DNA from: Amphiura filiformis
Taxonomy: Eukaryota; Echinodermata; Ophiuroidea; Amphilepidida; Amphiuridae
DNA: 64,000 bases
Direction: 5' to 3'
NCBI RefSeq assembly: GCF_039555335.1
Contig: NC_092628.1
Coordinates: 78,494,713 to 78,558,712, forward strand
Shown here: positions 40,262-64,000 of the stretch, in pieces
Layout of the letters: each line of letters begins with the position of its first letter
How positions within the stretch are numbered: position 1 is the first letter of the stretch
Program-made: the position numbers and the translations under genes
Notes under the pieces: model-generated
The model's database searches: none
Told to the model about the DNA's origin: nothing
What the model saw: the letters and a program-made list of their open reading frames with translations, nothing else

Positions 40262-40360
40262 GAAAAAGTGACCCTGCCTAGCGGTGAAGTTAAAGAATCG
40301 GTGGTGGAGGAGATCGTCAAACCGAAGAAGACAGGATCTGGAAGAGGAAGCAGGAAATAA
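40262..40360 (+). CDS. Possible alternative 3' exon of the CARD gene
   Basis: After a TCTCAG acceptor an open frame reads EKVTLPSGEVKESVVEEI, then a basic tail KPKKTGSGRGSRK and TAA. It looks coding, but its frame does not fit the only good donor of exon 3 (GT at 39670). It would need another donor or an intervening exon. Confidence 0.4.
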   Translation, partial: EKVTLPSGEVKESVVEEIVKPKKTGSGRGSRK

Positions 40361-40379
40361 AAAAAATCATTATAAATTT

Positions 40380-41440
40380 TAGACCATATCAAAAAGAAAA
40401 AAAAGGCAAAACATGCTAGTTAGGCATGTAGTCCTTATCTAAGTTTTTCAAAATTTAAAAGAAACCAAAATTGAATGTTTATTAGGCCTTTTTGGAAGTA
40501 TAATATATATATAAAAAAAAAATTAAAAGGAACCAAAAATTGTGTTTTCTTAGGACTTTTGGAGAAATTGTTCAAACAAAATTTAAATGGAACCCAAAAT
40601 TGTAGTTTTTCTTTAAAATAAAATAATAAAATTTGTATATCCTCTCCAGATTTAAATTAGACAGATTCAAAAAAATAACAGAGCTAGTTGGGCTTTGGAT
40701 TTTGTGAAAAAAAGTTAGGCATATTTTTGTACAAATTATTACCAAGCCAATTGGCTTTGGATTCTTCTTCCTTCTTCCTATATATGTGCATACCTCAAAT
40801 TGAGTATTGTCGCACAGGCTTAACGTGCACAGTTTTTTACCTATGCACGATCCTGGAACCTAGGATTGATTGCAGATATCAGAACCGGGGATGGTCCCCC
40901 TTTTCTTTTCGAATTGCTCTAACACTTAACGTGCACAGGGTTTGACTCTTCCTGTACACAGGACCAACGGCTTTACGTGACTTGAATTGGAAATTTTTAA
41001 CAGAGCTAGTCAGCTCTGGTATTTGAAGAAAATTTGTACAGAGAGATAACCGAGCTAGTAGGCTCCGGTTTTGTATTTCATTTTGGAATTGTAATTGTTA
41101 AAAAAAAAAATTAAAAATCACAAGTAAAGTATTCAATAATTGTCATAAAAAAGGTTTTTATAATTAGTGACAGTAGATGTAAAGTAATATGTACTGTGTT
41201 CATTCTATTAACCATCCATGCCCCTATAAGCGCCCACTTGTTGTAAAGTCACTGGGTCTTTACAACAAGCAAACTGTGATAAACTTTATTAACTACTAAA
41301 ATATACACACTGATGATGATGGATGAATGTTTTGGGCCTTTTTTACATATTGTAGGCAAACAATGTAACAAAAGCACCCACCAAAAATGACTTTGTTAAG
41401 TGCCCTGCACTGGCGGTTAATGGAAGGAATATGGAACTAT
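40380..41440. other. AT-rich flank with short repeated motifs
   Basis: Variants of CAGAGCTAGTnGGCTnTGG occur at about 40680, 41000 and 41050, and a GAACCnAAAATTG motif recurs near 40460, 40530 and 40590. No gene is seen after the possible terminal exon. Confidence 0.4.
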
Positions 41441-41604
41441 TTTTTGGGACGCGGAATTGTGCAGTACCGCGTGCGGTACTGCACACTTCCGTTTACAGTC
41501 CCGCATGCGAACTGCACATCCCGACCTGCATTCCCCGCATGCGGGAATGCAGGTCGGGCTGTGCAGTACCGCATGCGGGACTGTAACATTTTGGTGCATT
41601 TCCG

Positions 41605-42175
41605 CTAGGGATGTGCAATATTTTTGTGTTTTTTTTCGCATGGGGATGTGCAATATTTTCGGTGTATTTCCGCGTGGGGAACTGCAATATTTTGGTGCAT
41701 TTCCGCTAGGGATGTGCAATATTTTTGGTGTTTTTCCGCATGGGGATGTGCAATATTTTTGGTGTATTTCCGCCAGAGATGTGCAATATTTTTGGTGTTT
41801 TTCCGCATGGGGATGTGCAATATTTTCGGTGCATTTCCGTTAGGGGATGTGCAATATTTTTGGTGCATTTCCGTTAGGGGATGTGCAATATTTTTGGTGC
41901 ATTTCCGTTAGGGGAACTGCAACATTTTTGGTGTTTTTCCGCATGGGGATGTGCAATATTTTTGGTGTATTTCCGCCAGGATGTGCAATATTTTGGTGTT
42001 TTTCCGCATGGGGATGTGCAATATTTTGGTGTATTTCCTCGTGGGGAACTGCAATATTTTTGGTGCATTTCCGCTAGGGGATGTGCAATATTTTTGGTGT
42101 ATTTCCGCGTGGGGAACTGCAACATTTTTGGTGCATTTCCGCTCAGGGGATGTGCAATATTTTTGGTGTATTTCG
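41605..42175. repeat. About 35-bp tandem array, left arm
   Basis: About 16 units of the type GATGTGCAATATTTTTGGTG plus TTTTTCCGCATGGGG, with an alternative AACTGCAATATT start in some units. Open frames through it (CNIFGVFPHGDVQYFW and so on) are by-products of the repeat. Confidence 0.92.
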
Positions 42176-42889
42176 ATCATTGATTGTCTAAAACTAATTA
42201 CTAAAAAAAGTAAAAACACCTAAGAGCCTGACGTATTTTTCACCACGAATGTAGGCCTACTAAATTTTTGTCATACCTATTTTGTTGCATGTCCGCATGC
42301 GGAACTGCAAAATATTTGGTGCAGTTCGAATGCGGTATTTTTCGCATGCCAGCGTCTTGAACTGTCAAATATTTGGTGTAGTTCCGCATGCATTTAATGT
42401 GAATGTCCGCGTGCGTAATGTAATATATTTGGTGCAGGTCCGCATGCGGGATGTACGGTACATGTTTTTTCGCATGTCCGCATGATGAGGGAATGCAAGA
42501 CGAGATGCACAGTTCCGGATACGTAGGCCTACAGTATGTTGTACATGTTTTATTTATTGATATTTTTAAAGAAGAAAGTCTTGTTCCAAATTTCTGCATA
42601 TAGTTTCATTGTTGTAATTAAAAAATAAAGTCTTCTCCAAAGGTCGGCAGAGTCAGGCCTAAAATATGTACACAATTTTATATTAAAATCATTTTCACAC
42701 GCCTCTTATGATGATTAGTGACTATTATAAATCTACTTGATATTGTTCTATTATAAGAACCCAGCGGACATTCCTCAAGTGGATCAATCATCAATTCACA
42801 CTGATCTCAAACGATGCATGCGCATCAATAGCAGCGACAAGATCAGAAAACAACTTTTAATGTTTATCACAGCATGACCAAGTCAGTAT

Positions 42890-43430
42890 TGGGCACACAG
42901 GTATGTCCCGGGGATGGGGCACTTCAATATGAAATGGATATAGGTGTAGGGCTGACACTTTCGCACTAAGGGGCATCCGGTGAGAGCAAAATGTAAAAAA
43001 TATGGGGTCATTGGGTGAGAGCATGATTTTTGGCATTCGGTGAGAGCAAAATGTAAAAAATATGGGGTCATTGGGTGAGAACATGACCTTTTTATAAAAT
43101 GGAATCTTTGGGTGAGAGCCAAAACAGCGCCTTAAAAACCTCGAAAATCTCGTATTTCTAGTTCTAAATGGCTTCAAATTTCATTGTTTGTTTTTTTCAA
43201 AATAAGTAACAAAATCAGTGATAAATGAAAGTTGCTGTTCAAATTGAACTTGTAAGGGTCTTTGGGTGACAGATCAAATGGAAAAATAGGGGGTCTTCGG
43301 GTGAGGCATGTGTTCGTAAAAAAATATGGGGTCTTTGGGTGACAGCGACGCTGAAAAAAGGGGTCTTAACAGCCCTACATACGCGTCACCTCCAAAGTGG
43401 GAGTGCCCACTGCCCCCGGGAGGTCTGTCT
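42890..43430. mobile_element. Element nested in the loop of the palindrome
   Basis: TGTAGGGCTG at 42945 is mirrored by CAGCCCTACA at 43370, and a G-rich block at 42908 is mirrored near 43405. The interior has several copies of GGGGTCnTTGGGTGAGAG. It is unrelated in sequence to the surrounding arms. Confidence 0.6.
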
Positions 43431-43540
43431 GGTCTACCTGAAGAATTTTAAGATTAAAAAAACCTTTTAATTTTTTTTTGTGTGTGTGTGCATAAAATGT
43501 ATACAATATACTGACGGTCATATTATTATAATCAAGACAA

Positions 43541-43690
43541 TATGGAGGCACGCGGAATATTTGGTACGATTACGCATTGGTTATACTAGTGAAAATTTAT
43601 TTTCGCATGCCCGCATATCTTGAACTACAAAATATTTGGTGCAGTTCATCGCATGCGTAACAGCCGCTTTTAATACCTGGTAAATATATA
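43541..43690. repeat. Extra fragment of the palindrome-family end
   Basis: It holds CAAAATATTTGGTGCAGTTC and GCTTTTAATACCTGG, which match the left arm near 42305 and the outer right end near 45355. A further partial copy of the family is therefore present inside. Confidence 0.65.
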
Positions 43691-44699
43691 CATTTCATCA
43701 TGCTAAATACAATTATTAGTTGATTATATAATAGTATATACATTTCATCATGCTAAATTAAATTATTATCCTCCGTAAATTGATAATCGATCCACTTGAG
43801 AAATTCCCGTTGGAACTTTAATAGAAAGTGGTCACAACGTCAAGTTGAATATATAATAGTCATCATTAAAGAGGCGTGTGAAATTGATTTTAATAAAATT
43901 AATTTCATACAATAACTATTAGCTAGGTTTCTATGCTATGCCGACCTTTCGGACAAGACTTTTCAAGACTCTCTTTTAAATACAAATAATGAAACGGAAA
44001 GTAAAACGATAGTGGGCCTAGGCCTAATATTGAATTAATATTCATATCTACATGCGAATATGCGGATACATGCGACGATCATTGATTGTCTAAAATTCCA
44101 TGATCTTGATCCTATTTTTATCGATATACATCGATCACTTATCGGATTAAGTATTGGACACAATAGATGAAGTATTTGATTGACAAAGTTGGGCAGCTTC
44201 TAACATGAATAAAATGCACACAATGTCAAGTTTATTACAATGGTCACTAAATAGATTCATCACAATAGCCACTTATCATTAAGCTTAATGCGATAATATT
44301 TTTAATATAATAAAATACTATAGACTTTAAAGTTTATAACACTTTCTTTTAATTACAGCAAATGAAGCAAAACTCACAATAGGCTAATAGGAGGTAATAG
44401 TCAAAGTAAAACGATAGTAATATTAAAGAAATTTATATATGCATGTGATAATATTTTCTACGCCAGCAGGGCCTACAAATAAAAAACAAAACAAATAAAA
44501 CCAAAACAAACAACAACAACTACAACAACAAAAACCTTTTTTCGCCGCAAGACACGCTGAACTGTAGGGCATACAACTCGCCTTGCATTCCCTCCCGGAT
44601 TCTCTCATGAGGACATGCGAAAAAACATGTTCACCCATCATGCAGGGCTGCACGAAATATAATTGCATTTCCGCACGCGGACATTCGAACAAAAACCGT

Positions 44700-45150
44700 T
44701 CATTATGCGGAACTACACCAAAAATGTTGCAGTACCCCATGCGGAAAGACACCACAAATATTGCAGTTCCCCATGCGGAAAATACACCAAAATATTGCAC
44801 ATCCCCTAACGGAAATGCACCAAAAATATTGCAGTTCCCCATGCGGAAAAACACCAAAAATATTGCACATCCCCATGCGGATAAACACCAAAAATATTGC
44901 ACATCCCCTAACGGAAATGCACCAAAAATATTGCAGTTCCCCATGCGGAAAAAACCCCAAAATATTGCACATACCCTAACGGAAATGCACCAAAATATTG
45001 CACATCCCCTAACGGAAATGCACCAAAAATATTGCAGTTCCCCATGCGGAAAAATCCAAAAATATTGCACATCCCTAACGGAAATGCACCAAAAATATTG
45101 CACATCCCCATGCGGATAAACACCAAAAATATTGCACATCCCCAAAATAT
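44700..45150. repeat. About 35-bp tandem array, right arm (inverted)
   Basis: About 13 units of AAAATATTGCAGTTCCCCAT plus GCGGAAAAACACC, the reverse complement of the left-arm unit. Confidence 0.92.
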
Positions 45151-45360
45151 TGCAGTTCCCCATGCGGGACTGCACATCCCGACCTGCATCATCAAGATGC
45201 GGTACTGCACATCCCGACCTGCATCACCGCATGCGGAATGCACGCCGGGATGTGCAGTCCCGTATGCGAAGTGCGTGACGGAAGGTGCAGTTCATGCATG
45301 CGGACTGTGAGCGAAGTGTGCAGTACAAGACGCGGTACTGCGCGAGATAACAGTCGCTTT

Positions 45361-46606
45361 CAATACCTGGAATATGTGTATGTTATTGAATGCAACATAT
45401 CTTGGCATAATTATAATGAGGTCTCAGTTACTGAACAATTCAGATTTTTGAATCTCAGTTTCAGTTCTACCAGTTCAATCTACCAGTTATTGATCAGGAA
45501 ACCCCAAGTAAAAAATTTTGGAGCTAGCAAACTGATGGCATATGGTAACTGAAAAGATCAGATGTGAACATCTCAATTGTACACAAACTTATACAAATCA
45601 GAGTTTTATGTATAAATGTGATATGCACAATGGGCAAATGGACTACGGAGAAGTCTTCCTTTTAAGAAATTTTAAAACTTTATTTTCACTTTAATTTTTC
45701 AAGTAACAAAGACAAATATGTATAAGTATACATTTTTGGAAAGGAAATGATTAAAGGAATTCAACGGTATCTTTGACATTTGGAATAAAATAACCATTTT
45801 TTAAAAACATCCAACATATGCTTACACTTCTCAATGATAAAAATTGCATATTAAATAAATTAAATAAATGTCGGTGATTTAACACACGCTACACCTAAGT
45901 ACCAGCACACTTCAACAATTATATTATTGTTCTAGAGTCAAAAATCTGGTTACTACTTTCTGAAATTTGGTTTATTTTTCCAAATATGGACCAAAAAAGG
46001 TCTAAATTTGTATATTTTCAACTGTTTTACAATTTTGGAATATCTTTGGCCGTAAAACTAATTTGAAAACCTAGTTAACAAAAATGAAAGAGTAGTAACT
46101 AGACATTTGTTCCTAGATTAATAATATGTAATTTCATTATTTGGAAATGTAAGCATAGCATAATTAGTTATAATGGACCGAAAATGTTGACCTTTATGTG
46201 TAGCCTGAAAGGAGGAGATTATATAATCACTTTTCTGGCTGCATGTATGGATCGATGTGGGCTCTATGTATGGGTGGCTCTATGTATGTAATGAGATGAT
46301 TGGTTTGTCGCCAGCTCTGAGAGCACTTTTTCTGGCACCACTGTATTGTATTTTGCAGATATCTAATAAAAATATATGAATATGTACATGTATGTGATAA
46401 ATTTTCTGAAAGTTTTGGTTAAAGTTTTGATTATGTGATTAAATGCTCTCAGGTGAATAGATAAAATCATGTTGCAACCAAACTTGGGTCATAGCTGCAC
46501 TATGGGTATACATTAACAAGCAGCCAATACCTGTACTCTTTAGCTCTGATTTAAGACCTCATTTGTTGAAATTGGTTGAGAATAAAAGAAACGGTGGTCT
46601 AAAACC
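45361..46606. other. Intergenic DNA, nothing recognised
   Basis: AT-rich sequence without supported exons. Confidence 0.4.
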
Positions 46607-46607
46607 T

Positions 46608-46867
46608 AAGGCCAAAAAAAAAAAAGGTTCGGTCTCAAAGCTTGCGCGTGTTTGTAAAATCCCACGATTTGACAAAAAACAAATGCGGAAATTTTTTTAT
46701 TTCAAAAAAATCTTTTTTAGTTTTTTCCAGAAAAATCGGCGAAAATCAGACTTTTTTCTCAAAATACCATGAAAAAAAGTCGGGAATAAAAAAATAAAAA
46801 AATTGCATTTCGCATTTGTTTTTAAATTTCTCATGAGCTTTGAGACAAACCTTTTTTTTTTGGCCTA
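46608..46867. mobile_element. Short DNA element with A-rich terminal repeats
   Basis: TAAGGCCAAAAAAAAAAAAG plus GTTCGGTCTCAAAGCTT at the left is mirrored by AGCTTTGAGACAAACC plus a T run and GGCCTAA at the right. The terminal repeats are about 33 bp. Confidence 0.75.
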
Positions 46868-47400
46868 ATAAAGAAATGAAATCAAAAGTTGCGCTTTTGT
46901 GTTCTAAGCAATGAACGCATGACGCTATTTTTAACATGTTAATCAATGGAAGCACAGCGATGGTTTTCTTGTTCGTGAACGCTTTGTGTGCAAATCAATA
47001 GGGTGTGCAATGGAGCAAACTGCAACTTTTAAGTTGGCATCTTCCTTGGGTTTTTGGATCGTCATATCTTTATTTCTTGAACAATTTCAACAAATGAGGT
47101 CTTAAATTCGACCTAAAAGATGCAGCTATTGGCTGCTGGTTCCAATTATGACATATCTGTCTTTGTTTAGGATATACAAGGTGAACATAACTGGTACCTT
47201 AATTTTTTGGCTTACTGTATACATGTATTGGTGGTATCAAAGATCACATACAGGTCAAAGCTCAATTTGAGGTCAACTCACTCAACTGGTAAAACAGCCT
47301 AAAAATGACAAGTCTGGTCTCCTGGGAACAGTTCAAATCCAATTGCAACCATTATTATGTTTTGATGAATCCAAGTGTGTGAAAATATTGGATCCAAAAC
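46868..47400. other. Intergenic DNA
   Basis: No exon is seen. Motifs near 47225-47280 (GGTCAAAGCTCAATTTGAGG) recur near 47690, so a dispersed repeat is likely. Confidence 0.4.
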
Positions 47401-47556
47401 ATAATAATGATAAAATTGGATGCTTTACGCCCAATATTTATTGGTCTTGCTATGAGTTTTAAAATATTGGACTCGACTACGCCTCGTCCAATATTTTTAA
47501 ACTCATAGCTCGACCAATAAATATGGGCTCAATCAATCCAATTTTATATCATTATG
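47401..47556. mobile_element. Long hairpin MITE
   Basis: The left arm 47401-47472 and right arm 47485-47556 are reverse complements over about 72 bp, with a 12-base loop. The right-arm sequence recurs once more at 47568-47640. Confidence 0.82.
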
Positions 47557-47981
47557 TTTTACGTCTTGTCCAATATTTTAAAACTCCTAGCTCGACCAAT
47601 AAATTTGTGTATTGGGTTCAAACCATCTAATTTTATTTCAAACTTGAGCCATAGCTGCACTATGGGAACTTTCATGTATTGGTGGTGTTCAAGGTCACAC
47701 ACTGAGGTCAAAGGTCATTTGAGGTCAACATGTAAAAAAGGCTGAAAATGAAAAAAAAAATTCTTTGGATGACCTATTTGGGACCACCGTCCCTTGTTTT
47801 TTACTTCTTTTACCAGAAGTAATCGCAAAAGCAGGTGGTGGCGAAGCAGGTGAGACTCATGGTTCGAGAACGATCTTTTCAATGTTATAATTACATAATA
47901 ATATGTTTAAAACTACACACATTGTACTTCTAAATTAGTGCAAATACTGATTGCCAGCATTGTGACTGTGTTGATTTCTTT

Positions 47982-48830
47982 TTATTGAAATATTTTGATA
48001 AGACTTTTGTCAGTATCAACCACAAACAATTCCTGTTCATCCGCAGACAGTGCAATACCATATGGATGGTTTTCCATTGTAGTGATACAGTCTAGATACT
48101 TGTATTCTCCACCTGTACACATATATCTAAACACAGCCTCAGGTTTACCCATGTTGCTAACAAACAATTCCCCTTGATTACTGCAGCACACATACACAGG
48201 CTCCCAATATTCTGAATATTGAATTCCAGGAGGGCGTTGTATGATGCTAGCATTATGACCTGATTGATCCATTACCTGCAGGGTATTGTCATCAAATGAT
48301 ATGATAAGCTTATCATCTGGCGTACAGGTTAGGTTGTATGGCGAAGATGTTGTTTCATACTTTGATATCAGAGTCCCATCAGGCTGATGAATGGACACAG
48401 TCTTGTGACCATCCCAACCTAATGCTACTATGATTCTACCTGTTGAATCTACAGCAACTGAGGTAGGTCTGGATGGCTTATTATCGATATTATGTGTGGG
48501 AGTAGTACTGACTAGGACACCTTGACTGTCATATATGTAGAATTCATTAATACCATGCTCAGAAGGTATGATGTATTTGTTGCTGGGACTAATAGCAATG
48601 TCAAGTATACTAGAAGGAGAGCCTTGGATGACATGTTTGACATCGCCATTCCTAGAGAACACAGTCACAGGTGACCAGTCACTGGTTAAGGCAATATCCC
48701 CATTAGGATGAGTAGTAATACCTGATGGCTCCTCAACGTGTGGGGTAGTTTTGATTTGTCCACATTCTTTCCACTTTTTACCAGTGCTGGGCTGGGTGTG
48801 AGGCGGTGTACTTGGCACAGATTGGGCCAT
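47982..48830 (-). pseudogene. TRIM/NHL-type beta-propeller, probably from a decayed TRIM gene
   Basis: A 282-codon frame encodes NHL-like propeller repeats: EEPSGITTHPNGDIALTSDW, ILDIAISPSNKYIIPSEHGI, RPTSVAVDSTGRIIVALGWD, YGIALSADEQELFVVDTDKS. This is the C-terminal module of TRIM2/3/56/71-like E3 ligases, which binds protein or RNA partners. The frame is intact. Just upstream in the same strand, however, coiled-coil and B-box fragments lie in other frames with a TGA between, and there is no RING. Either the gene is dead or only this module is expressed, starting at the ATG at 48830. Confidence 0.75.
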
Positions 48831-48949
48831 TGGATATAAAATCGGATGAAACTTGGATCTTGCCGCTACTGATCATGACAAATGTTTTGCTGTAGCTGAT
48901 GGTAAGGGGTTTGTTGTAGAGTCTGTATCTTTGTATCTGTAGGCCTATC

Positions 48950-50792: not shown

Positions 50793-50964
50793 ACATGTAT
50801 ATCATCAGTTGATAGCTACCGGGTACTTCATCAATACAAGTATCAGCAGTAGATAGCTACTTTTTCAATTCCAGTATCAGCAGTAGTTAGCTACTCCATC
50901 AATACTAGTATCAGCAGTATAGATAGCTATTTCATCAATACAAGTATCATCAGTAGATGGCTAC
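50793..50964. repeat. 34-bp minisatellite, left part
   Basis: About five diverged units of CAGTATCAGCAGTAGATAGC plus TACTTCATCAATAC, cut off by the LTR element and resuming at 58337. Confidence 0.9.
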
Positions 50965-52044
50965 TGTGATGTGCCCTGAGTAATTTGATTTAATTTAATT
51001 ATTTAACTTTGTTTACAAGCTGAAAGTATTTCATGAGATGGGAAACCCCTTGTATTTTGGAATTCCCCAAATTATTGTAAACAAAGTCAGATCTATGTTT
51101 GGAACTTGGAAAGCCCCAGTTCATTGTTGCACCATCAGGAAAACCCCCAGGAAGTGATGTAATGTGAATGTATAATTAATCTTGGGAAATCCCAAGATTG
51201 CAGCAATGTTGTGAAAATGTGATTGAAGTAATGGTTTATTAATAGATGATGGGTTTTTTTGCATGAGTACTGATATAAAAAGCTGGAGGTTTTGTTGGGA
51301 CTTTACAGAATGCCATGGGAGATTGAGATATTCCACATGTGTGTGATGGTCTTCGTGCTTCAAAAAAGAAGTACATTTTAACCAGTTTATATAGCCAATA
51401 ATTGAGCTAATTTTAATACAGCAACGAAGAAGACAGCGAGCACACAAAAGTGCTCTTCCTCATCAAAGGATTAAAAGTTCTTCTGTCAAATTGCTGGAGT
51501 TTGCTGGGTTTGTGAAGGCCACGCATCTGTCAAAAAACAGCGGAGCTGTGTTAAAGAAACCTGTTCCCTGGAAAAAGAGTGATTGGTGAAAGAAACACCA
51601 TTTTTGGAGAAAGCAGCGCAAGGAGATATATTTGTGAAGAAAGCAGCGCAAGGAGATATATTTGTGGAGATAACAGCAAAAGGAGATTGGAGAAAGCATC
51701 ATCATTTTCGTACGAGGATTTTATACGCAAGGATTTATAAGCGCAAGTGTACACTGGACTTCGCAGGACAAGCGAATAAGGATATATTACATCAGTCGTC
51801 CAGAACATTGCAAGAACTCTAGGATCACCAACAAGAAGACAGCTGGTTAAGTAGTCATAGAGTAAAACTGTCATTGTGTGATTTTATTGTATATGCGATA
51901 TTGTTATCATATGTACCAATCATACTCTGTTTTCAATTAAAGACTTAGATTTTGTTAGCTTAAATAAACAGTGTATTTGTGTTGTGCATTCGTGTGAGTT
52001 CGGGTAAAAGGTGATTTTGGCCTTGAGTCGTACGACTCGTAACA
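50965..52044 (+). repeat. 5' LTR of Gmr1-like element
   Basis: 1080 bp. It contains a tandem duplication of a 30-bp unit (GAAAGCAGCGCAAGGAGATA and following) near 51605-51665. GATATAAAAAGCTGG near 51271 is a good TATA-box candidate for the element promoter. Confidence 0.95.
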
Positions 52045-52048
52045 AAAT

Positions 52049-52066
52049 TGGGGGCTCGTCCGGGAA
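52049..52066 (+). other. Primer binding site, tRNA-Pro type
   Basis: TGGGGGCTCGTCCGGGAA lies four bases after the 5' LTR. It is complementary to the 3' end of tRNA-Pro, the same primer used by murine leukaemia virus-type retroviruses. Confidence 0.92.
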
Positions 52067-52123
52067 ATACACTGTAAAAAAGTTAACATTAATTTACTAA
52101 AGTCTTGAACGTGAAAGTACAGT

Positions 52124-53671
52124 ATGGCAGAGTTTAAAGCAGAAGAGTTTCTTGAAACTATAAATTGGGAGAAGTTTGATGAGTTGAAGAAGCCTGATTT
52201 ATTAGCATTTGCCAAACATTATAACTTGAAAGTAAAGCAAGCTACAAGAAAGCAAATAATCAAAAATGCATTGATTGATGTTTTGGTCGGGGAGGACATT
52301 TTTGATGAATCCTATTTGGCAGAGAAACTTGACGTAGAAACTGAAATTGGTGGGGACTCAGCATTTAAATTGAAAGAGTTGGAAATTCAATTAGAACTGA
52401 GGAAAATGGAAATGGACCAAAAGAAAATAGAAATGGACCAAAAAGAAAAACTGGAAATGATCAAGTTAGAGAATGAAAATAAAGAAAAACAAGAAAGGCT
52501 AGACATTGAAAACAAAAACTAGCAATGGAAGACAAAGCTCGCCAAGACAAGATGGCGCTTGAACACCAAAAGTTGGAACTTGAAGAAAAGGAAAAACAAA
52601 CAAAGCTGCAAATAGAAGCACATTTGAAAGAAAAAGAAATTGAGGAAAAGTACAAGTTTGAACAAGAGAAGTTGGCAAAGCTAGGTGACAAATACTCATC
52701 AAGTTTCTCCTCAAAGTCAGGGTTTGATGTTACAAAGTATGTAAAGCTTGTGCCTAAATTCAAAGAAAAAGAAGTTGACGAGTATTTTCAACATTTTGAA
52801 AAGGTAGCTACAAATTTGAAATGGCCTCCAGAGCATTGGACCCTACTGTTACAAAGTAGTTTTGTGGGGAAGGCCAGGAAACTTACTCAGCTCTACCAAT
52901 AGAGAAGTGTAATAATTATGAAGAAGTCAAACAGGCAGTCCTTAAGGCCTATGAACTGGTGCCTGAAGCATACAGACAAAAGTTCAGAGATTCAAGAAAG
53001 CAAGCAGATCAAACCCATGTAGAATTTGCTAGAGTAAAAGAACAAATGTTTGACAGGTGGCTTGGGTCAAAAGAAGTCAAAGATGATTTCGCCAACTTAA
53101 GCAATTAGTTCTTATAGAAGAGTTCAAGAAATGTGTCCACGCTGACATTAAAACCCATTTGGATGAAAGCGCTAGCAAAATTAAGACACTAAACGAGGCG
53201 GCGACAATGGCGGACGACTATGGCTTAACTCACAAATTGAATGGGAGTAGATTTGGTCATAACAGAAGTTATTCAAACAGATTCAGCCATAATCAACCTA
53301 GAACAAATCAGGGTGGCACACAAGAAGTGAAACCTCAGTCTAATTCACAGCATAGTGCTGGTGGTAGAGGGACCCCAGGGAGTTCAGGTAACAGAGCAAA
53401 ATTTGGGACTGAATTTAAAGCCAAAGTAACTTGTACTCATTGTAAGAGACCAGGGCATACGATGACCCAGTGTTATTTCTTAAAAGGCAGACAAGACGCA
53501 CAAAAACAGCAGCAAACTGCTAGTAATACTGTAGGATGTGCAGTGTCACTTGAGTCAAAGAAACGAGTCAGTCAAATCAAGAAACAAGAATTCCCACAAA
53601 GGGAGGTGACACAGACAAGGTGTGTGAGGAATTTGAACCTTTGTGTTAGAGGGAGTAGTATCACTAGGTGA
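52124..53671 (+). pseudogene. Gmr1-like gag with SCAN-like capsid and zinc knuckle
   Basis: Gag forms the particle around element RNA. The start MAEFKAEEFLETINWEKFDE leads into a SAP-like KKPDLLAFAKHYNLKV segment. A long charged coiled coil follows (EMDQKKIEMDQKEKLEM and so on). A capsid region at about 52960-53230 then reads EAYRQKFRDSRKQADQTHVE, FARVKEQMFDRWLG and AATMADDYGLTHK, resembling the vertebrate SCAN domain. Last comes a CCHC knuckle, CTHCKRPGHTMTQC. A TAG at 52520, a frameshift near 52880 and another near 53095 break the frame. The original gag is about 500 residues. Confidence 0.85.
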
Positions 53672-53990
53672 TAATGGTAGTCCAAAGCCCATTAAGATTG
53701 TGCGAGATACGTGTTGTGCACGGTCTATGATTCTGGAAGGAACTTTGCCCTTTAATGAGGATAGTTCAGTTGGTGATGCTTTGATCCAGGGTATTGGGAT
53801 GGAAATACTTAATGTACCTCTCCACAAAATTAACTTGACATCTGACTTAGTTTCTGGTCCTGTAACCATAGGAGTTAGACATGAATTGCCAGTCAAGGGA
53901 GTGTCCATGTTGCTAGGAAATGATCTGGCAGGGGGGGAAGGTTTTTCCTGACCCAATAGTCACAGATAAGCCCTGTATACAGGATGATAA
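53643..53990 (+). pseudogene. Gmr1-like protease region
   Basis: It is a retropepsin-like segment between gag and integrase. VRDTCCARSMILEG occupies the catalytic DTG position with Cys in place of Gly. GVSMLLGNDLAGG is the C-terminal motif usual in this clade. The frame changes near 53940 into the region leading to integrase. Confidence 0.75.
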
Positions 53991-54353
53991 TAGTGAGGAA
54001 GAGGAGATATTTCCTGCATGTGCAGTGACACGGGCAATGAGTAAGAAGGCCTCATTAGAAACAATTGAGGACAACCAAATTGACGACTTAGGCTACAATT
54101 TGGAAGACACATTTGTGTCAAAGTTGAATGAGAAAGAAGATAAACTTCCTTCTCCTGGGGATAAAAATACCCCTAAAGATGATGACACAGCCTCTGAGCA
54201 TGAACAAATTGGGGAAACCATGAAAGACCCATTAAGTCATGACAAGCTGATTCTGGAGCAACAAAATGACCCAGAACTCAAAGAGATCAATCAAAGGGCA
54301 TTGACCCTAGAAGAAGCAGAACAAAATTCTGTCTGTTTTACAAACAAGATGGT

Positions 54354-55490
54354 GTGCTAATGAGAAAATGGCGGCCACCTGATGTACCTGCCGATGAAGA
54401 GTGGAAGGTAGTGCACCAAATTGTGGTACCAAAAGTATACCACACTGAAGTAATTAACATAGCACATGACAGTCCAATGGCAGGGCATTTGGGTGTTAAG
54501 AAAACTCATGAAAGAATTCTGAGACATTTCTGGTGGCCCACTCTCAGAAAAGATGTTTCTGAATATTGCAAAACATGTCACATATGCCAAGTAGTAGGGA
54601 AGCCAAATCAGAAAATACCTCCTGCTCCATTAAAGCCAATTCCAGCCTTTGATGAACCATTTAGTAGGGTTATTATTGATTGTGTAGGCCCCCTACCAAA
54701 GACTAAGTCAGGTAATCAATACCTTCTGACAATTATGTGCGCGTCAACACGCTTTCCTGAAGCCATACCCTTGAGAAATATTAAAGCAGTGACAATAGTG
54801 AAAGCTTTAACCAAGTTCTTCACATTTGTGGGGCTCCCCAAGTCCATCCAGTCAGATCAAGGATCAAACTTTACTTCTGGAGTATTTCAGCAGGTCATGT
54901 ATCAATTAGGTATAGAACAGTATACCTCAAGTGCATACCATCCAGAATCACAAGGTGCACTAGAAAGGTTCCACCAAACATTGAAAAACATGATCAGGAC
55001 ATATTGTTTGGAATTTCAGAGGGACTGGGATGAGGGAGTACACTTGTTGTTGTTTGCTGCTAGGGAAGCTGTTCAGGAAACTTTAGGATTTAGTCCTTTT
55101 GAGTTAGTGTTTGGACACACAGTGCGCGGGCCCTTAAAGTTGTTGAAAGAAAAGTGGCTCAATGAGAAATCAGATATCAATTTATTGGATTATGTCTCCA
55201 ATTTTAAGCATAGGCTTAACAGAGCAACTGATATCGCCAAGGAAAACTTGAAACAGGGTCAGGCCAAAATGAAGCAATGGTATGATAAACATGCCAAAGA
55301 GAGAGTGTTCAAACCAGGTGACAAAGTTCTAGTACTGTTTCCAATTCCAGGACACCCATTACAAGCCAGATATCATGGCCCATGTGAGGTAGAGTCAAAA
55401 GTGGGTGAAGTAGATTATATTATCAAGACTCCTGGGAGACGCAAGAGCAGGCAGTTATGCCACATAAATATGCTCAAAGAGTATGTTGAA
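54354..55490 (+). CDS. Gmr1-like integrase (in pol frame with RT)
   Basis: It inserts the element cDNA. The zinc domain is HDSPMAGHLG with CKTCHICQ. The DDE core is VIIDCVGPLPK, IQSDQGSNF and GALERFHQTLKNM. A GPY/F-type module follows (ARYHGPCEVESKVG, RQLCHINMLKEY). All catalytic residues are visible. It is in one open frame with the downstream RT start, so integrase precedes RT in the polyprotein. An acidic linker with three ANVDK-type repeats lies between the two (55530-55600). Confidence 0.92.
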
Positions 55491-55689
55491 AGAAGTGACA
55501 GTGGCATTCCAAAACCTGTGTGTACAGTAAAACATGCTGATAATGTAGACAAACATGCCAATGTAGACAAAATCGCCAATGTAGACAAGAGTAAAGATGA
55601 CAATTCTGATGTCACATTTGACCAGGATAAAGAGCTAGAGCACAAAGAGTATAATGTAAAATTGAACAATTCTGATGTGCTCACTAATT

Positions 55690-56560
55690 TGGACTCAAAG
55701 TTAGGTCATCTTTCTCAAGATCAACAAAGTCAAATTGCAAATTTGATTCACAAATTTGACAATATATTTCCTGATACGCCAAGTAGAACAAATGCTGCAT
55801 TTCATGATGTAGATGTTGGTGATACAAAACCAATCAAGCAGCATCCTTACAGAGTCAATCCATTGAAAATGGAACATCTCAAAAATGAGATTAATTATAT
55901 GCTAGACAATGATATCATAGAACCAAGTAGTAGTGAGTGGAGTTCACCATGTATACTTGTTCCCAAGCCTGATGGTTCATACCGATTGGTCGCAGACATG
56001 AGAGCTGCAAATGTTCATTCAAAGACAGACTCGCACCCAATTCCAAGAATTGATGATTGCATAGACAAAATTGGGAATGCAAAATTTGTTAGCAAATTTG
56101 ATCTTTTGAAAGGGTACTGGCAGGTTCCACTCACAGACCGTGCCAAAGAGATTTCTGCTTTTGTACACCATTTGGTCTTTACCAATACAAAGTTATGCCA
56201 TTTGGGTTGAAACATGCCCCAGCAACATTTCAGAGAATGGTGAACCAAATTGTGGCAGACATAGAGGGATGTGAAGCGTATGTAGATGATTTGATTGTTT
56301 ACAGTCAAACTTGGGAACAACACATGGAACAACTCCATCAATTGTTTAAGAAGCTGTCAGAAGTACAATTGACAGTCAATCTGGTAAAAAGTGAGTTTTG
56401 CCATGCCACAGTCACATACTTGGGATATGTTGTAGGTCAAGGTCAGGTAAAACCTATCAAAGCCAAAGTTGAAGCAATTGAGCAATACCCCACACCTGTA
56501 AATAAGAAGGCACTCATGAGATTTCTAGGAATGGTTGGCTATTATAGAAAGTTCTGTCCA
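55690..56560 (+). pseudogene. Gmr1-like reverse transcriptase, one frameshift
   Basis: RT motifs are HPYRVNPLKMEHLKNEI, SSPCILVPKPDGSYRLV, KFDLLKGYWQVPL (first Asp), MPFGLKHAPATFQRM and YVDDLIVYSQTWEQH (catalytic pair). The thumb is readable as FLGMVGYYRKFCPNFSEIAS. A frame change near 56165-56195 separates the first and second halves. Apart from that, all key residues are kept. Confidence 0.9.
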
Positions 56561-56689
56561 AACTTTTCAGAGATAGCAAGTCCTTTGACTGATTTGTTGA
56601 AGAAAGATGCAAAATTCATTAGGTCAGAACAGTGTGAAAATGCTTTTCACAAAGTCAAATCAATACTCATGAGTTCACCAGTACTTACT

Positions 56690-57084
56690 GCACCTGATTT
56701 TCAGAAGCAGTTCAAGTTGACTGTTGATGCCAGTGACATAGGCTGTGGAGGTGTTGTGATGCAAGAGGGTGAAGATCAAATAGATCACCCCATTTGTTAC
56801 TTTTCAAGGAAATTCAACAAGCACCAGAGAAATTACTCCACAATTGAGAAGGAGTGCCTAGCATTGCTATTAGCATTGCTACATTTTGATGTGTATTTGG
56901 GTACCACAGTATACCCTGTGCTTGTTTTCACAGATCACAATCCCTCACCTTCATCAACAGGATGAAGAACAAAAACCAAAGACTGGTGAGGTGGAGTTTG
57001 ACCTTACAAGAGTACAATCTGGACATCAAACATATTAAGGGAAAAGACAATGTAATGGCTGATGCCCTGTCCAGAATTGCATAA
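56690..57084 (+). pseudogene. Gmr1-like RNase H, frameshift near its end
   Basis: FKLTVDASDIGCGGVVMQ, NYSTIEKECLALLLAL and LVFTDHN give the three acidic residues. A one-base change near 56943 moves the rest, including DNVMADALSRIA and the TAA at 57082, into another frame. This is the last gene of the element; no integrase or env follows. Confidence 0.88.
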
Positions 57085-57254
57085 AAAGGGCTGATAAACA
57101 AAAATTCCTTTAAAAAGGGAACTTGTGTGACAAGTAGTCACTGTGTATGATGAGTTAACTACTCAAAGTTGATAATATGTTGAAGTTGATGTAAAAGAAG
57201 AAAGCATTTAAGAAAGTTTTCATTACATTCGAACTTTCTTCTTTTAAGGGGAGG

Positions 57255-58336
57255 TGTGATGTGCCCTGAGTAATTTGATTTAATTTAATTATTTAACTTT
57301 GTTTACAAGCTGAAAGTATTTCATGAGATGGGAAACCCCTTGTATTTTGGAATTCCCCAAATTATTGTAAACAAAGTCAGATCTATGTTTGGAACTTGGA
57401 AAGCCCCAGTTCATTGTTGCACCATCAGGAAAACCCCCCAGGAAGTGATGTAATGTGAATGTGTATAATTAATCTTGGGAAATCCCAAGATTGCAGCAAT
57501 GTTGTGAAAATGTGATTGAAGTAATGGTTTATTAATAGATGATGGGTTTTTTGCATGAGTACTGATATAAAAAGCTGGAGGTTTTGTTGGGACTTTACAG
57601 AATGCCATGGGAGATTGAGATATTCCACATGTGTGTGATGGTCTTCGTGCTTCAAAAAAGAAGTACATTTTAACCAGTTTATATAGCCAATAATTGAGCT
57701 AATTTTAATACAGCAACGAAGAAGACAGCGAGCACACAAAAGTGCTCTTCCTCATCAAAGGATTAAAAGTTCTTCTGTCAAATTGCTGGAGTTTGCTGGG
57801 TTTGTGAAGGCCACGCATCTGTCAAAAACAGCGGAGCTGTGTTCAAGAAACCTGTTCCCTGGAAAAAGAGTGATTGGTGAAAGAAACACCATTTTTGAAG
57901 AAAGCAGCGCAAGGAGATATATTTGTGAAGAAAGCAGCGCAAGGAGATATATTTGTGGAGATAACAGCGCAAAGGAGATTGGAGAAAGCATCATCATTTT
58001 CGTATGAGGATTTTATACGCAAGGATTTATAAGCGCAAGTGTACACTGGACTTCGCAGGACAAGCGAATAAGGATATATTACATCAGTCGTCCAGAACAT
58101 TGCAAGAACTCTAGGATCACCAACAAGAAGACAGCTGGTTAAGTAGTCATAGAGTAAAACTGTCATTGTGTGATTTTATTGTATATGCGATATTGTTATC
58201 ATATGTACCAATCATACTCTGTTTTCAATTAAAGACTTAGATTTTGTTAGCTTAAATAAACAGTGTATTTGTGTTGTGCATTCGTGTGAGTTCGGGTAAA
58301 AGGTGATTTTGGCCTTGAGTCGTACGACTCGTAACA
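57255..58336 (+). repeat. 3' LTR of Gmr1-like element
   Basis: It is a direct repeat of 50965-52044 and is followed by CTAC, the target duplication. Confidence 0.95.
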
Positions 58337-59487
58337 CTACTCCATCAATACCAGTATCATCAGTAGATAGCTACATCATCAATGGGCCTACCAGTATCAG
58401 CAGTAGATAGCTACTTCATCAATATAAGTATCAGCAGTAGATAGCTACTTTTTCAATACCAGTATCAGCAGTAGATAGTTACTCCATCAATACAAGTATC
58501 AGCAGTAGATAGCTATTTCATCAATACAAGTATCATCAGTAGATAGCTACGCCATCGATATCAGTATCATCAGTAGATAGCTACTTCATCAATGGGCCTA
58601 CCAGTATCAGCAGTAGATATATATTAGCTACGTCATTAATACAAGTTTCATCAGTAGATAGCTACTTCATCAATACCAGTATCATCAGTAGAAAGCTACT
58701 TCATCAATACCAGTATCATCAGTAGATAGCTATATCATCAATACAAATATCATCAGTTAAGATAGCTACTTCATCAATAGGCCTACCAGTATCAGCAGTA
58801 GATAGCTACTACGTCAATACCAAATTATATCAGCAGTAGATAGCTACTTCATCAATACCAGTACCATCAGTAGATAGCTACTACGTCAATACCAATATCA
58901 GCAGTAGGTAGCTACTTCATCAATACCAGTATCAGCAGTAGATAGCTACTTCATCAATACCAGTATCAGCAGTAGATAGCTACTTCATCATTAGGTCTAC
59001 CAGTATCAGCAGTAGATAGCTACTACGTCAATACCAATATCATCAGTAGATGGCTACTTCATCAATGCCAGTATCAGCAGTAGATAATTACTTCATCAAT
59101 ACCAATATCATCAGTAGCCTAGATAGCTACTTCATCAATACCATTATCAGCAGGAGATAGCTACTTCATCAATACCAGTATCAGCAGTGATAGCTACTCC
59201 ATCAATATGCCTACCAGTATCAGCAGTAGTTAGCTACTACGTCAATACCAATATCAGCAGTAGATAGCTACTTCATCAATACCACTGTCGGCAGTAGATA
59301 GCTACTTCATCAATACCAGTATCAGCAGTAGATAGCTACTTCATCAATACCAGTATCAGCAGTAGATAGCTACTTCATCAATAGGCCTACCAGTATCAGC
59401 AGTAGATAGCTACTACCTCAATACCAATATCAGCAGTAGATGGCTACTTCATCAATACCAGTATCAGCAGTAGATAATTACTTAAAC
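58337..59487. repeat. 34-bp minisatellite, main array
   Basis: More than 30 diverged units of CAGTATCAGCAGTAGATAGC plus TACTTCATCAATAC. Some units carry a TAGGCCTAC insertion that recurs every few units, indicating a higher-order repeat. Confidence 0.93.
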
Positions 59488-59815
59488 CCCATTAAAAGCT
59501 ATTAAACCAAGATAACACTCATTGAAAACAGCTCAACTATGTTACATCAGATCTTCTCTGGTTAAATCCACACTACACATGTTTCTGTTTTACCTGTGCA
59601 ATGAGCAATGAGCTGGTATTATAGTTTCAGTTGGGTGACCGATTATAAGCAAACGCAAGGTTACAATACTGTGTGGGCCTTTGTTCACGAAATGAGACAA
59701 TAGTGTGCACATTGTTAACCAGAATTCTTGAAAATGAGAAACATTTATAATGGCGATTACGTCAATGGTGAGAGCACTGTGTATTGTGTATAGGAAAACG
59801 GACAGTAACTGCAGT
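59488..59815. other. Unique spacer inside the minisatellite
   Basis: About 330 bp without the 34-bp unit and without recognised content. Confidence 0.5.
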
Positions 59816-59985
59816 GTGTCAGCAGTAGATAGCTACTCCATCAATACAAGTATCATCAGTAGATAGCTACTTCATCAACACCAGTATCATCAGTAGATAG
59901 CTATCTCATCAATATGCCTACCAGTATCAGCAGTAGATAGCTACTTCATCAATAGCGGCCCAGGTATCATCAGTTCCTAAGATAA
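59816..59985. repeat. 34-bp minisatellite, distal block
   Basis: About five further units of the array family. Confidence 0.88.
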
Positions 59986-60104
59986 ATTGGGCCCGTGAAA
60001 CGACCAAAACTATGGATAAAGTAAATATGATATTGAAGTAGGCTAGTATAAGAAACGTCCTTTTGCTATAACTATTTGGTCGCAACAGCTCGGCATGCCT
60101 TTAA

Positions 60105-60572
60105 GGGGGCGCAACACTAAATCACTACGCATTTTTTAAGAACGAAATTCGGCTAATATAGTCCATAGTGAGTATGAGATTGTAGCGACCATATCTACCG
60201 ACATGTTCACTTTAAATCACTCAATATCAGCTCATATGAATTCGACAAGTGTCTCCAATGATAACATGCAGAAAAAACCGGACATTTTATCTCAAAAGCA
60301 ATTCTCTGTGGCGGATGAAGACAACTTCCGATTTTGAAATGTGAGTGGTGAATTTAGTATATTTTAGGCCATATTTTTTGCACCGCGACATAGCGAAAAA
60401 AGTCAACGGTCATCGATATATGCCGACAAATGTTTTGGAATCTACAGAAACAAAGCTTTAATTTCATACCAAATTTATTTTTCCAAGTATTGCAGGGACG
60501 CCAGGAATGGCGCTCGCAGTAGGCCAAAATCACACGTTATCCTATGGAACGCTTATTTAGTGTTGCGCCCCC
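60105..60572. mobile_element. TTAA-flanked MITE with 18-bp perfect terminal repeats
   Basis: GGGGGCGCAACACTAAAT and its exact reverse complement bound a 468-bp element between TTAA at 60101-60104 and 60573-60576, indicating piggyBac-type insertion. It ends about 260 bp upstream of the start codon of the repeat-protein gene. Confidence 0.88.
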
Positions 60573-60576
60573 TTAA

Positions 60577-60834: not shown

Positions 60835-60908
60835 ATGCTGGTTTCAATGCTAACGATCCTGTCGTTTGTTGGTGATATCTGGGTCGAAGTCATAGAAAGA
60901 TACCAAAG
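60835..60908 (+). CDS. Exon 1 of the repeat-protein gene
   Basis: 24 codons plus two bases end CAAAG before a GTAAGC donor. The split arginine codon is completed by the first base of the exon at 62089. Confidence 0.68.
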
Positions 60909-63900
60909 GTAAGCGTGCGTTTTCATATCGTGTATTAATTACTCCAGCTCCACTTTTACCCAACGTATCAGATAGAGCGAAGAGGCGTTAATGTTGGACT
61001 AAAAGACAGATTTGTTTTATTTCACATTAATTGGTCTAATGTCACTTTGGTTAAATTCTCATTTCGCCCAATACTTCATCGTCTTCACTTTAAGTCAAGT
61101 GTTGAAACCAAATTACTTGATCTAAATTCCCACTTGGGCCAATAATATTCCCACCTAGTCAAAAAGTTCCACTGCACAAACTTTGGTGTTAAAAGTAACT
61201 CAAGCGGGCGCATAGCAACCAGCTCGAGAAAGGGGAACTGCACATGCTCACACTGGTTTTACGGCTATTTCCCCTTTATGACGTCAGCCCGACCGAGAGA
61301 ATAGAGGACCGCACGTACTCAAGTGGTGTTGTGTTAATGTTTTAACACTTTTGGTGTTATTGTATACCTTCCAGGTGTCACAGATGACAACAAGAGTGTA
61401 ATAATAACATCCAAAAGTGTTAAAAAACAACACCCCTTGGGTTCGGTCCTCTATTGATTGACTCCAACCGGTGCTACCTTTAACACCTAAGTTTTTGCAG
61501 GGATTGACCCCCGGCAAAAACGAAAAAATGCTCTTAAATCTTCTTAAAACGTTTATTCAAAGCGTTTTAATAACATTTGAATGTCAGGTTATATAACAGA
61601 TCATAAATTTGTTTTTAAACATTAGGCAGGTCCGCATTGTAAAATAATTTGTTGTCAACAGTTGAATAACATTCTCTTGTTTTACATCATGTTTTCAAAA
61701 ATGTTTTATGAATGTTATTAAAACGGGATTTTTTTTGCCTTTTTATAACCCGACATTTAAACCTTTTCTGTGTGTTTGTTGAGCTTATGCTTTTGCAAAA
61801 TCGATACTGAAGTATCTATAATGTCTGTATGATTTATCGTTCAAGGCTTAAATCAAGATTTTGTAGCTCGTATAGAGTCGCTAAAGTATAGCATTGTCGT
61901 ATGTAATAAAATATTATACTGCATGAGCCTCTGCATGAGGAAACAGACCATTACAAAATTGCACACATGTATTTCCATGGGTTTTTTTTACCGGAGGAGT
62001 CCCCTTGCCCCGCAATCGACACGCCAGGCACCGTAATTGATTTATATAATAAGGCAACTGATTTTTATTAACTTTGGTTATTTCACAGAAGATACTCCCG
62101 CAAGCATCACGACTACATTCATGACATACTGAATGGGTCATTTGGGATAACACCTACAGCAAGAAAGATTTTTACAGTACGTCCCGCGAGTCTTTCAGAC
62201 ATTAATGGACTGAGATCATCGTCGTTGTCACTGTCTGGTTTTTCGTCATCAGCCAAAGGCCCTGGATACCATGGATACGTGCTGAAAGGTCGATTCGGCA
62301 TAAAGCCCGCAGCAAGAAAAACCACGAAAGCAAATCATGCTGAAGCGAGTCTGTCTGATATCTACGGACTGAAATCATCGTCGCTGTCACTGTCGGCTTC
62401 TTTGCCCTCAACACCCAAGCAAGATTGTGTCCTGAATGGTAGATTCGGCGTGGAACCCACTAAACGAAAAGTAATCAAAGCAAGTCCAGCTAAAGCGAGT
62501 CTGTCGGATATCTACGGACTGAAATCATCGTCGCTGTCGCTGTCGGCTTCTTTGCCCTCAACACCCAAGCAAGATTGTGTCCTGAAAGGTAGATTCGGCG
62601 TGGAACCTGCTAAACGCAAAGTCTTCCAAGCAAGTCCAGCTAAAGCGAGTCTGTCGGATATCTACGGACTGAAATCATCGTCGCTGCTACTGTCGGCTTC
62701 TTTACCCTCAACACCCAAGCAAGATTGTGTCCTGAAAGGTAGATTCGGTGTGGAACCCACAAAACGAAAAGTCGTCCAAGCAAGTCCAGCTAAAGCGTGT
62801 CTGTCGGATATCTACGGACTAAAATCATCGTCGCTGCCACTGGCGGCTTCTTTGCCCTTAACACCCAAGCAAGATTGTGTCCTGAAAGGTAGATTCGGCG
62901 TGGAACCCACAAAACGAAAAGTCGTCCAAGCAAGTCCAGCTAAAGCGTGTCTGTCGGATATCTACGGACTAAAATCATCGTCGCTGTCACTTTCGGCTTC
63001 TTTGCCCTCAACACCCAAGCAAGATTGTGTCCTGAAAGGTAGATTCGGCGTGGAACCCACAAAACGAAAAGTCGTCCAAGTAGGTCCAGCTAAAGCGTGT
63101 CTGTCAGATATCTACGGACTAAAATCATCGTCGCTGCCACCGTCGGCTTCTTTGCCCTTAACACCCAAGCAAGATTGTGTCCTGAAAGGTAGATTCGGCG
63201 TGGAACCCACAAAACGAAAAGTCGTCCAAGCAAGTCCAGCTAAAGCGTGTCTGTCGGATATCTACGGACTAAAATCATCGTCGCTGCCACTGTCGGCTTC
63301 TTTGCCCTCCACACCCAATCAAGATTGCGTCCTGAAAGGTAGATTTGGCGTGGAACCCACAAAACGAAAAGTCGTCCAAGCAAGTCCAGCTAAAGCGTGT
63401 CTGTCGGATATCTACGGACTTAAATCATCGTCGCTGCCACTGTCGGCTTCTTTGCCCTCCACACCCAAGCAAGATTGCGTCCTGAAAGGTAGATTTGGCG
63501 TGGAACCCACAAAACGAAAAGCCGTCCAAGCAAGTCCAGCTAAAGCGTGTCTGTCGGATATATACGGACTAAAATCATCGTCGCTGCCACTGTTGGCTTC
63601 TTTGCCCTCAACACCCAAGCAAGATTGCGTCCTGAAAGGTAGATTCGGCGTGGAACCCACAAAACGAAAAGTCGTCCAAGCAAGTCCAGCTAAAGCGTGT
63701 CTGTCGGATATATACGGACTAAAATCATCGTCGCTGCCACTGTCGGCTTCTTTGCCCTCAACACCCAAGCAAGATTGTGTCCTGAAAGGTAGATTTGGCG
63801 TGGAACCAACAAAACAAAAAGTCATCCAAGCAAGTCCAGCTAAAGCGAGTCTGTCGGATATCTACGGACTGAAATCATCGTCGCTGTCACTGTCGGCTTC

Positions 63901-64000
63901 TTTGCCCTCAACACACAAGCAAGATTGTGTCCTGAAAGGTAGATTTGGCGTGGAACCCACAAAACGAAAAGTGATCCAAGCAAGTCCAGCTAAAGCGAGT
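60835..64000 (+). CDS. Unrecognised tandem-repeat protein (partial, runs off the window)
   Basis: Two exons are visible, 60835-60908 and 62089-64000+, joined in phase. The first encodes MLVSMLTILSFVGDIWVEVI, a short hydrophobic start that could be a signal peptide or a buried helix, then ERYQ. The second stays open for 637 codons and is made of 50-residue repeats, each with ASLSDIYGLKSSSLSLSASL, LPSTPKQDCVLK and GRFGVEPTKRK. I know no family with this unit. KR and KRK sites in every unit would suit a processed secretory precursor if the first exon is a signal peptide. The same sites would act as nuclear signals if it is not. Frame retention across all units argues that it is translated. Confidence 0.72.
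60909..62088 (+). other. Intron 1 of the repeat-protein gene
   Basis: The donor is GTAAGC and the acceptor TATTTCACAG. It contains a hairpin element at 61172-61500 and no other recognised feature. Confidence 0.65.
61172..61500. mobile_element. Hairpin DNA element in the intron
   Basis: CTGCACAAACTTTGGTGTTA at the left is mirrored by TAACACCTAAGTTTTTGCAG at the right. An inner inverted pair (AATAGAGGACCG near 61301 and CGGTCCTCTATT near 61444) nests inside. Confidence 0.75.
62089..64000 (+). CDS. Exon 2 of the repeat-protein gene, 50-residue repeats (open at right edge)
   Basis: The exon begins RYSRKHHDYIHDILNGSFGI and is followed by two diverged units (FGITPTARK, FGIKPAARK). Then come regular units whose KAS/KAC motif starts at 62492 and recurs every 150 bp. 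The spacing from the first diverged unit is 159 bp, still a multiple of three. No stop codon occurs in this frame to base 64000. Complementary-strand frames in the same region are shorter and broken. Confidence 0.75.
62341..64000 (+). repeat. 150-bp tandem repeat array
   Basis: The motif TnAAGCGWGT recurs at 62341, 62491, 62641, 62791, 62941, 63091, 63241, 63391, 63541, 63691, 63841 and 63991 with no length variation. Adjacent units differ by only a few bases. Confidence 0.97.

Follow-up and report, generated by a model that had tools for sequence, protein, structure and literature searches.

A putative Amphiura filiformis gene of tandem 50-residue units that may encode a disordered multivalent scaffold

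We tentatively interpret the end of a 64,000-nucleotide stretch of Amphiura filiformis DNA (the window) as a protein-coding gene that may encode a disordered intracellular scaffold, multivalent through two short motifs in each repeat unit. This one gene would consist of a short initial exon followed by a large exon of repeats, and its product would be a novel protein of an already known kind, a lineage-restricted tandem-repeat protein. The interpretation starts from an open frame, its periodicity, constraint at the codon level and the lack of a confident predicted fold, from which we infer location and binding partners. The features are listed below, with the exon and intron assignments putative.

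60835..60908, + strand: putative exon 1, 74 nt (24 codons plus 2 nt), MLVSMLTILSFVGDIWVEVIERYQ, assigned from donor score and translation
60909, + strand: donor GTAAGC, 7.0 bits by a matrix not fitted to this species
60909..62088, + strand: putative intron, 1,180 bp, phase 2, 3' end tttcacag
62089..64000, + strand: putative exon 2, open until the window end
62135-62287, + strand: U0, diverged unit of 51 codons
62288..62437, + strand: U1, 50 residues, of intermediate divergence, 22-28 nt from U2-U11
62288-63937, + strand: U1-U11, 150 nt each, in protein register
62438..63937, + strand: U2-U11, ten 150-nt units, pairwise 3-14 nt apart of 150
63938..64000, + strand: U12, 21 codons, then the window end

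A forward-strand frame at 62072-64000 comprises 643 codons without a stop and continues to the window end. Tandem Repeats Finder reported a period of 150 with 11.1 copies, 95% matches and 0% indels for 62328-63997, and the two results agree on the single open exon of 150-bp units given in a preliminary description of this DNA. Within exon 2, the diverged 51-residue U0 is followed by eleven units, each exactly 150 bp long, and by a twelfth that the window end truncates; one middle unit reads GRFGVEPTKRKVVQASPAKACLSDIYGLKSSSLPLSASLPSTPKQDCVLK. The earlier term "exact 50-residue repeats" holds for the length of U1-U11 but is slightly strong for their sequence, given the differences of 3-14 nt within U2-U11 and of 22-28 nt from these to U1. 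Unit position 21 is Cys in U4-U10 and Ser in U2, U3 and U11, a distribution that nested amplification would give. The number of cysteines per unit varies from 0 to 2 and there is thus no conserved disulfide pattern. U0 and U1 share 27 of 47 aligned residues, 13 of these 27 via different codons. A small ancestral repeat may have been amplified by unequal exchange and homogenised while the edge units escaped.

The length of the frame and the spacing of its units are weak evidence for coding because a tandem array copies the frame of its founder unit. Tandem copying would leave one or more of the six frames open for 48% of the 150-bp pieces drawn from 30001-60000 and for 62% of Markov-1 units; in the consensus repeat unit one of six frames is open and the five others carry 1-3 stops per unit. 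The preliminary observation that all spacings are multiples of three is correct but nearly automatic in a homogenised 150-bp array, and little weight is given to it. These controls favor a non-coding satellite or dead gene with one frame open by chance, as do the minisatellites and transposons in which the surrounding region is rich and the failure of the searches described below to find a relative. Changes among units nevertheless make this explanation improbable. In U2-U11, 33 distinct changes comprise 16 synonymous, 17 replacing and 0 stop changes, compared with neutral means of 10.1, 21.5 and 1.4 in 5000 simulations. Zero stops occurred in 22% of simulations (P 0.22), which by itself suits a satellite, but the synonymous excess (P 0.017) and the joint outcome (P 0.005) argue against one; these P values are approximate since gene conversion among units makes changes non-independent. 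Pooled pN/pS in U2-U11 was 0.43. Between U0 and U1, differences at codon positions 1, 2 and 3 numbered 11, 12 and 23 (P 0.014), and 2, 1 and 6 in a 17-codon core (P 0.042), with codons aligned as protein, a procedure which biases toward third-position differences. Estimates of dN/dS were 0.50-0.67 for U0/U1 and about 0.58-0.76 for U1/U2, and constraint at values near 0.5-0.76 is modest. Also at odds with a satellite, the diverged U0 stays in frame despite length changes and preserves the motifs described below partly by different codons, and no second copy of the array was found in the first 60 kb of the window (blastn E<=1e-3, tblastn E<=10). As far as sequence can indicate, this codon-level evidence appears to support a real gene more than the open frame does. 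The synonymous distance between U0 and U1 is about 0.8. At the neutral rate of 1.885e-9 given in the source excerpt (PMC11310086), synonymous distances would correspond, if clock-like, to ~27 million years within U2-U11 and ~200-215 million years for U0/U1, ages that are rough because conversion resets the clock.

Splicing 60835-60908 to 62089-64000 yields a stop-free translation of 662 residues, so that the in-phase junction between a 24-codon exon and the repeat exon, as described earlier, is upheld as a putative one. Splice sites were scored with matrices that are not fitted to Amphiura filiformis. Across the window, donors of at least 7 bits number two on the + strand and five on the - strand, and of these seven the exon 1 donor alone lies behind an in-phase ATG exon of at least 30 nt. 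None of 54 control windows (2,050 bp) contained such an exon together with a donor of at least 6 bits. The acceptor at 62089 is mediocre at 3.0 bits, and another acceptor, at 61375, reaches 4.0 bits. We count the donor, which appears unusually good where the acceptor does not, as a third argument for a gene.

The 662-residue product is basic (net charge +62) and rich in Ser, Leu, Lys, Pro and Ala, with 106 Ser, 78 Leu and 72 Lys. AlphaFold2 modeling of the first 249 residues of exon 2 as a single sequence gave a mean pLDDT of 42.3 with weak strands once per unit at ~50, while U2-U5, modeled with eight shifted array pieces as alignment, gave a mean pLDDT of 34.8 without secondary structure. The repeat protein is thus predicted to be mostly disordered, AlphaFold2 having returned no confident fold, while the weak strands leave order possible. 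Within the unit, all 9 changes at codons 45-50 plus 1-7 and 22-33 are synonymous, whereas the 25 linker codons carry 17 replacing and 7 synonymous changes. This suggests two short constrained motifs per unit, approximately DCVLKGRFG[VI]xP and LSDIxGL[KR]SSSL, with looser linkers between them. U0 retains VLKG, FGIxP and LSDIxGLRSSSL, with GY in place of DC. Motif and linker boundaries were drawn post hoc, after the data had been seen, and permuting the labels matched the split in 1616 of 20000 cases for a run statistic and in 367 of 20000 for a span statistic. A test of the contrast on codons conserved between U0 and U1 was not significant (P 0.18). With mixed tests, we keep the motif/linker mosaic as suggestive.

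Inside the cell, each unit of the scaffold would present the same two binding peptides, avidity would depend on the number of units, and docking might be tuned through proline-directed phosphorylation at the SPAK and TPK linkers. A nuclear location via PTKRKV is conceivable at a further, weaker level. Of the 13 units, 10 have an NLS-type pattern and 10 a [ST]Px[KR] (CDK-type) pattern; by shuffling, such patterns arise in 10% and 16% of units, respectively. The nuclear alternative offered in the preliminary description would fit somewhat better than a secreted precursor, but these matches are confined to the amplified units and absent from U0 and U1, and a nuclear scaffold leaves the hydrophobic start of the protein unexplained.

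That hydrophobic start speaks for a secreted repeat protein, an explanation we regard as possible though doubtful. Here, a signal peptide or anchor would come from exon 1, and exon 2 would encode the mature repeats of an extracellular matrix, mucus or adhesive protein, or of a precursor cut into ~50-residue peptides at basic sites. The best 19-residue Kyte-Doolittle mean of exon 1 is 1.88; among 869 open stretches of the window that begin with ATG, 2.3% reach this value. By eye, however, the hydrophobic core is 11 residues long, its N-region is not basic, and positions -3/-1, close to where the core ends, lack the small residues expected at a cleavage site. The putative layout of a short leader exon plus a repeat exon resembles that of silk genes. 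The echinoid Transformer genes (SpTrf, formerly Sp185/333) offer an echinoderm parallel of two exons, a hydrophobic leader followed by repeats, the layout in Amphiura being putative; compared by layout, the excerpted account of SpTrf describes small clustered genes whose exon 2 is an element mosaic with several repeat kinds, as opposed to one homogenised 50-residue unit (PMC5491942). Processing at basic residues receives a mixed answer. Of the basic, cleavage-like residues that had been attributed to each unit, KR occurs in 10 of the 13 units; U0 and U1, which are older, do not have it and U11 has lost it. An RK doublet occurs in every unit except U11 (12 of 13). Single basic residues are present in every unit, and the precursor rule accepts monobasic or dibasic flanking sites. 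No RxKR or G[KR][KR] site was found in the part of the repeat protein seen. The KR/RK pattern and the variable cysteines argue, not decisively, against a processed or disulfide-bonded precursor, leaving the earlier proposal of such a secreted precursor weakly supported. Some ophiuroid neuropeptide precursors, as far as the source excerpt describes them, carry several peptide copies between basic sites after a hydrophobic start; the Amphiura gene differs in its lack of a credible signal peptide by eye, of KR in all units and of G[KR][KR] (PMC5627052). The units are also basic, in contrast to the three low-complexity C-type-lectin skeletal proteins of one brittle star, which are reported to be acidic. 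An echinoderm spicule-matrix protein (C-type lectin, acidic) was rejected as a candidate on the absence of a lectin from the Pfam matches and the charge of +62, both for the part of the gene seen.

Exon 1 could also be internal or spurious, with the array forming a single exon of a larger, known type of protein such as a Ki-67-like nuclear repeat protein; the remaining exons would then have been overlooked or lie beyond the window. We consider this rather unlikely. The weak acceptor and a hydrophobic reading that extends 5' of the exon 1 ATG in frame 0 are in line with this explanation; the exon 1 donor, among the best of the window, is not. Ki-67 repeats likewise occupy a single large exon, much of that protein is predicted to be unstructured, and its repeats are under relaxed purifying selection (median Ka/Ks 0.675, compared with the pooled pN/pS of 0.43 here), according to the portion of the Ki-67 study consulted (PMC8354752). 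That portion also reports that species differ in how many repeats they have and in the size of the unit, and describes human units of ~120 residues with a Ki-67 motif alongside FHA, PP1-binding and LR parts, features to be compared with an Amphiura gene seen in part (PMC8354752). LSDIxGLK resembles LEDLAGFK of the Ki-67 motif (PMC8354752), but shuffles score as high in 7-13% of cases and Pfam reported no Ki-67 repeat family at E<=10, on which grounds we rejected the Ki-67 repeat motif as an identification.

Within the limits of our searches, the earlier statement that no described family has this unit was borne out. No sequence relative was found at E<=1 among 1343 candidates with lengths of about 139-441 or 6302 candidates of about 354-1125. 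This search reached ~1,125 residues and would miss longer models, the array continuing past 64000; the negative result carries some weight because the database includes Amphiura NCBI proteins. Searches of the PDB by sequence and of Rfam at gathering scores returned no match, and no tRNA was detected. Pattern matches in prokaryote genomes (47) and viral contigs (3), where a relative is not expected, yielded no confirmed case. The Pfam families EAR, PLA2G12, Hum_adeno_E3A and Receptor_2B4 exceeded their cut-offs for the 637-residue array and were weaker in four-unit pieces; five single units of the 13 gave no family at E<=1, so these matches were rejected as the summed scores of many copies. NCBIfam PsaK, at 17.9 bits, was far under its cut-off of 105.3. 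Peptide strings of the unit occurred in no paper of the open-licence text searched, and titles and abstract openings on ophiuroid repeat proteins, bindin and neuropeptide precursors, among the matches listed, do not describe it.

As a tandem-repeat protein, the predicted product can be compared with those of Nematostella, of which the excerpted source states that most have units unshared across species, are disordered and are mostly predicted only (PMC2805694). Their units are mostly 5-20 residues long and 80% of segments are readable in more than one frame, as opposed to 50 residues and one of six frames in Amphiura (PMC2805694). Strongly relaxed purifying selection among repeats has been reported as universal in the part of a further study at hand (PMC5120217).

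The repeat gene lies in a genome of 36.67% GC and 59.3% repeats, according to the excerpted description (PMC11310086). A MITE-like element with TTAA at both ends and 22-bp perfect arms is present just upstream of exon 1 (60101-60576), and a MITE-like inverted-repeat element (61172-61500; 26-bp arms, 88%) lies within the putative intron. Further upstream is a Gypsy-type LTR element (50824-59954) that is young: its LTRs, 50965-52044 and 57255-58336, share 99.1% identity over 1084 bp. At 54270-56210 its integrase domains precede the start of the reverse transcriptase, an unusual order. A 34-bp minisatellite adjoins both LTRs, with about 4 copies at the left LTR and 32 at the right one, and is a candidate part of the element; from its last copies downstream to the repeat-gene ATG the distance is 0.9-1.4 kb. 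Related 34-bp minisatellites at 41588-42174 and 44705-45144 are inverted, ~2.5 kb apart and 78-87% identical in their best alignments, an arrangement that we take to be reminiscent of foldback-type elements. An RNase H-like frame and a reverse transcriptase frame, the latter below its Pfam cut-off, occur at 14750-16262 on the - strand and presumably resemble a DIRS-type element. A - strand frame at 47982-48872 matches an NCBI uncharacterized protein of Amphiura filiformis (P0001) at 98% identity over 64% of the query, the first 185 of the 191 residues of P0001 being identical to the frame. The last six residues, ILSSSV, and the stop are encoded near 40334 (- strand) behind CTTCCAG, and the first-exon donor reads CAG|GTAATG. 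This spliced neighbour assigns the window to Amphiura filiformis, a brittle star. This NHL-type model (40334-48872, - strand) thus uses 185 of 282 residues after the ATG and then a distant six-residue end; the annotation may be truncated or represent an isoform.

A long homogenised array that codes for protein may pass for a satellite, and a satellite may pass for a gene. Diverged edge units, and whether changes respect codons, allow the two to be discriminated from sequence only. A more specific version of the scaffold reading, which we consider unlikely, is that the unit of an undescribed echinoderm family, with two ancient motifs, underwent recent amplification in Amphiura, giving a long multivalent scaffold tuned by phosphorylation. 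If the array is not expressed, it would be a clean example of a satellite mimicking a gene; if it is expressed, it would provide a brittle-star repeat protein with a testable pair of motifs.
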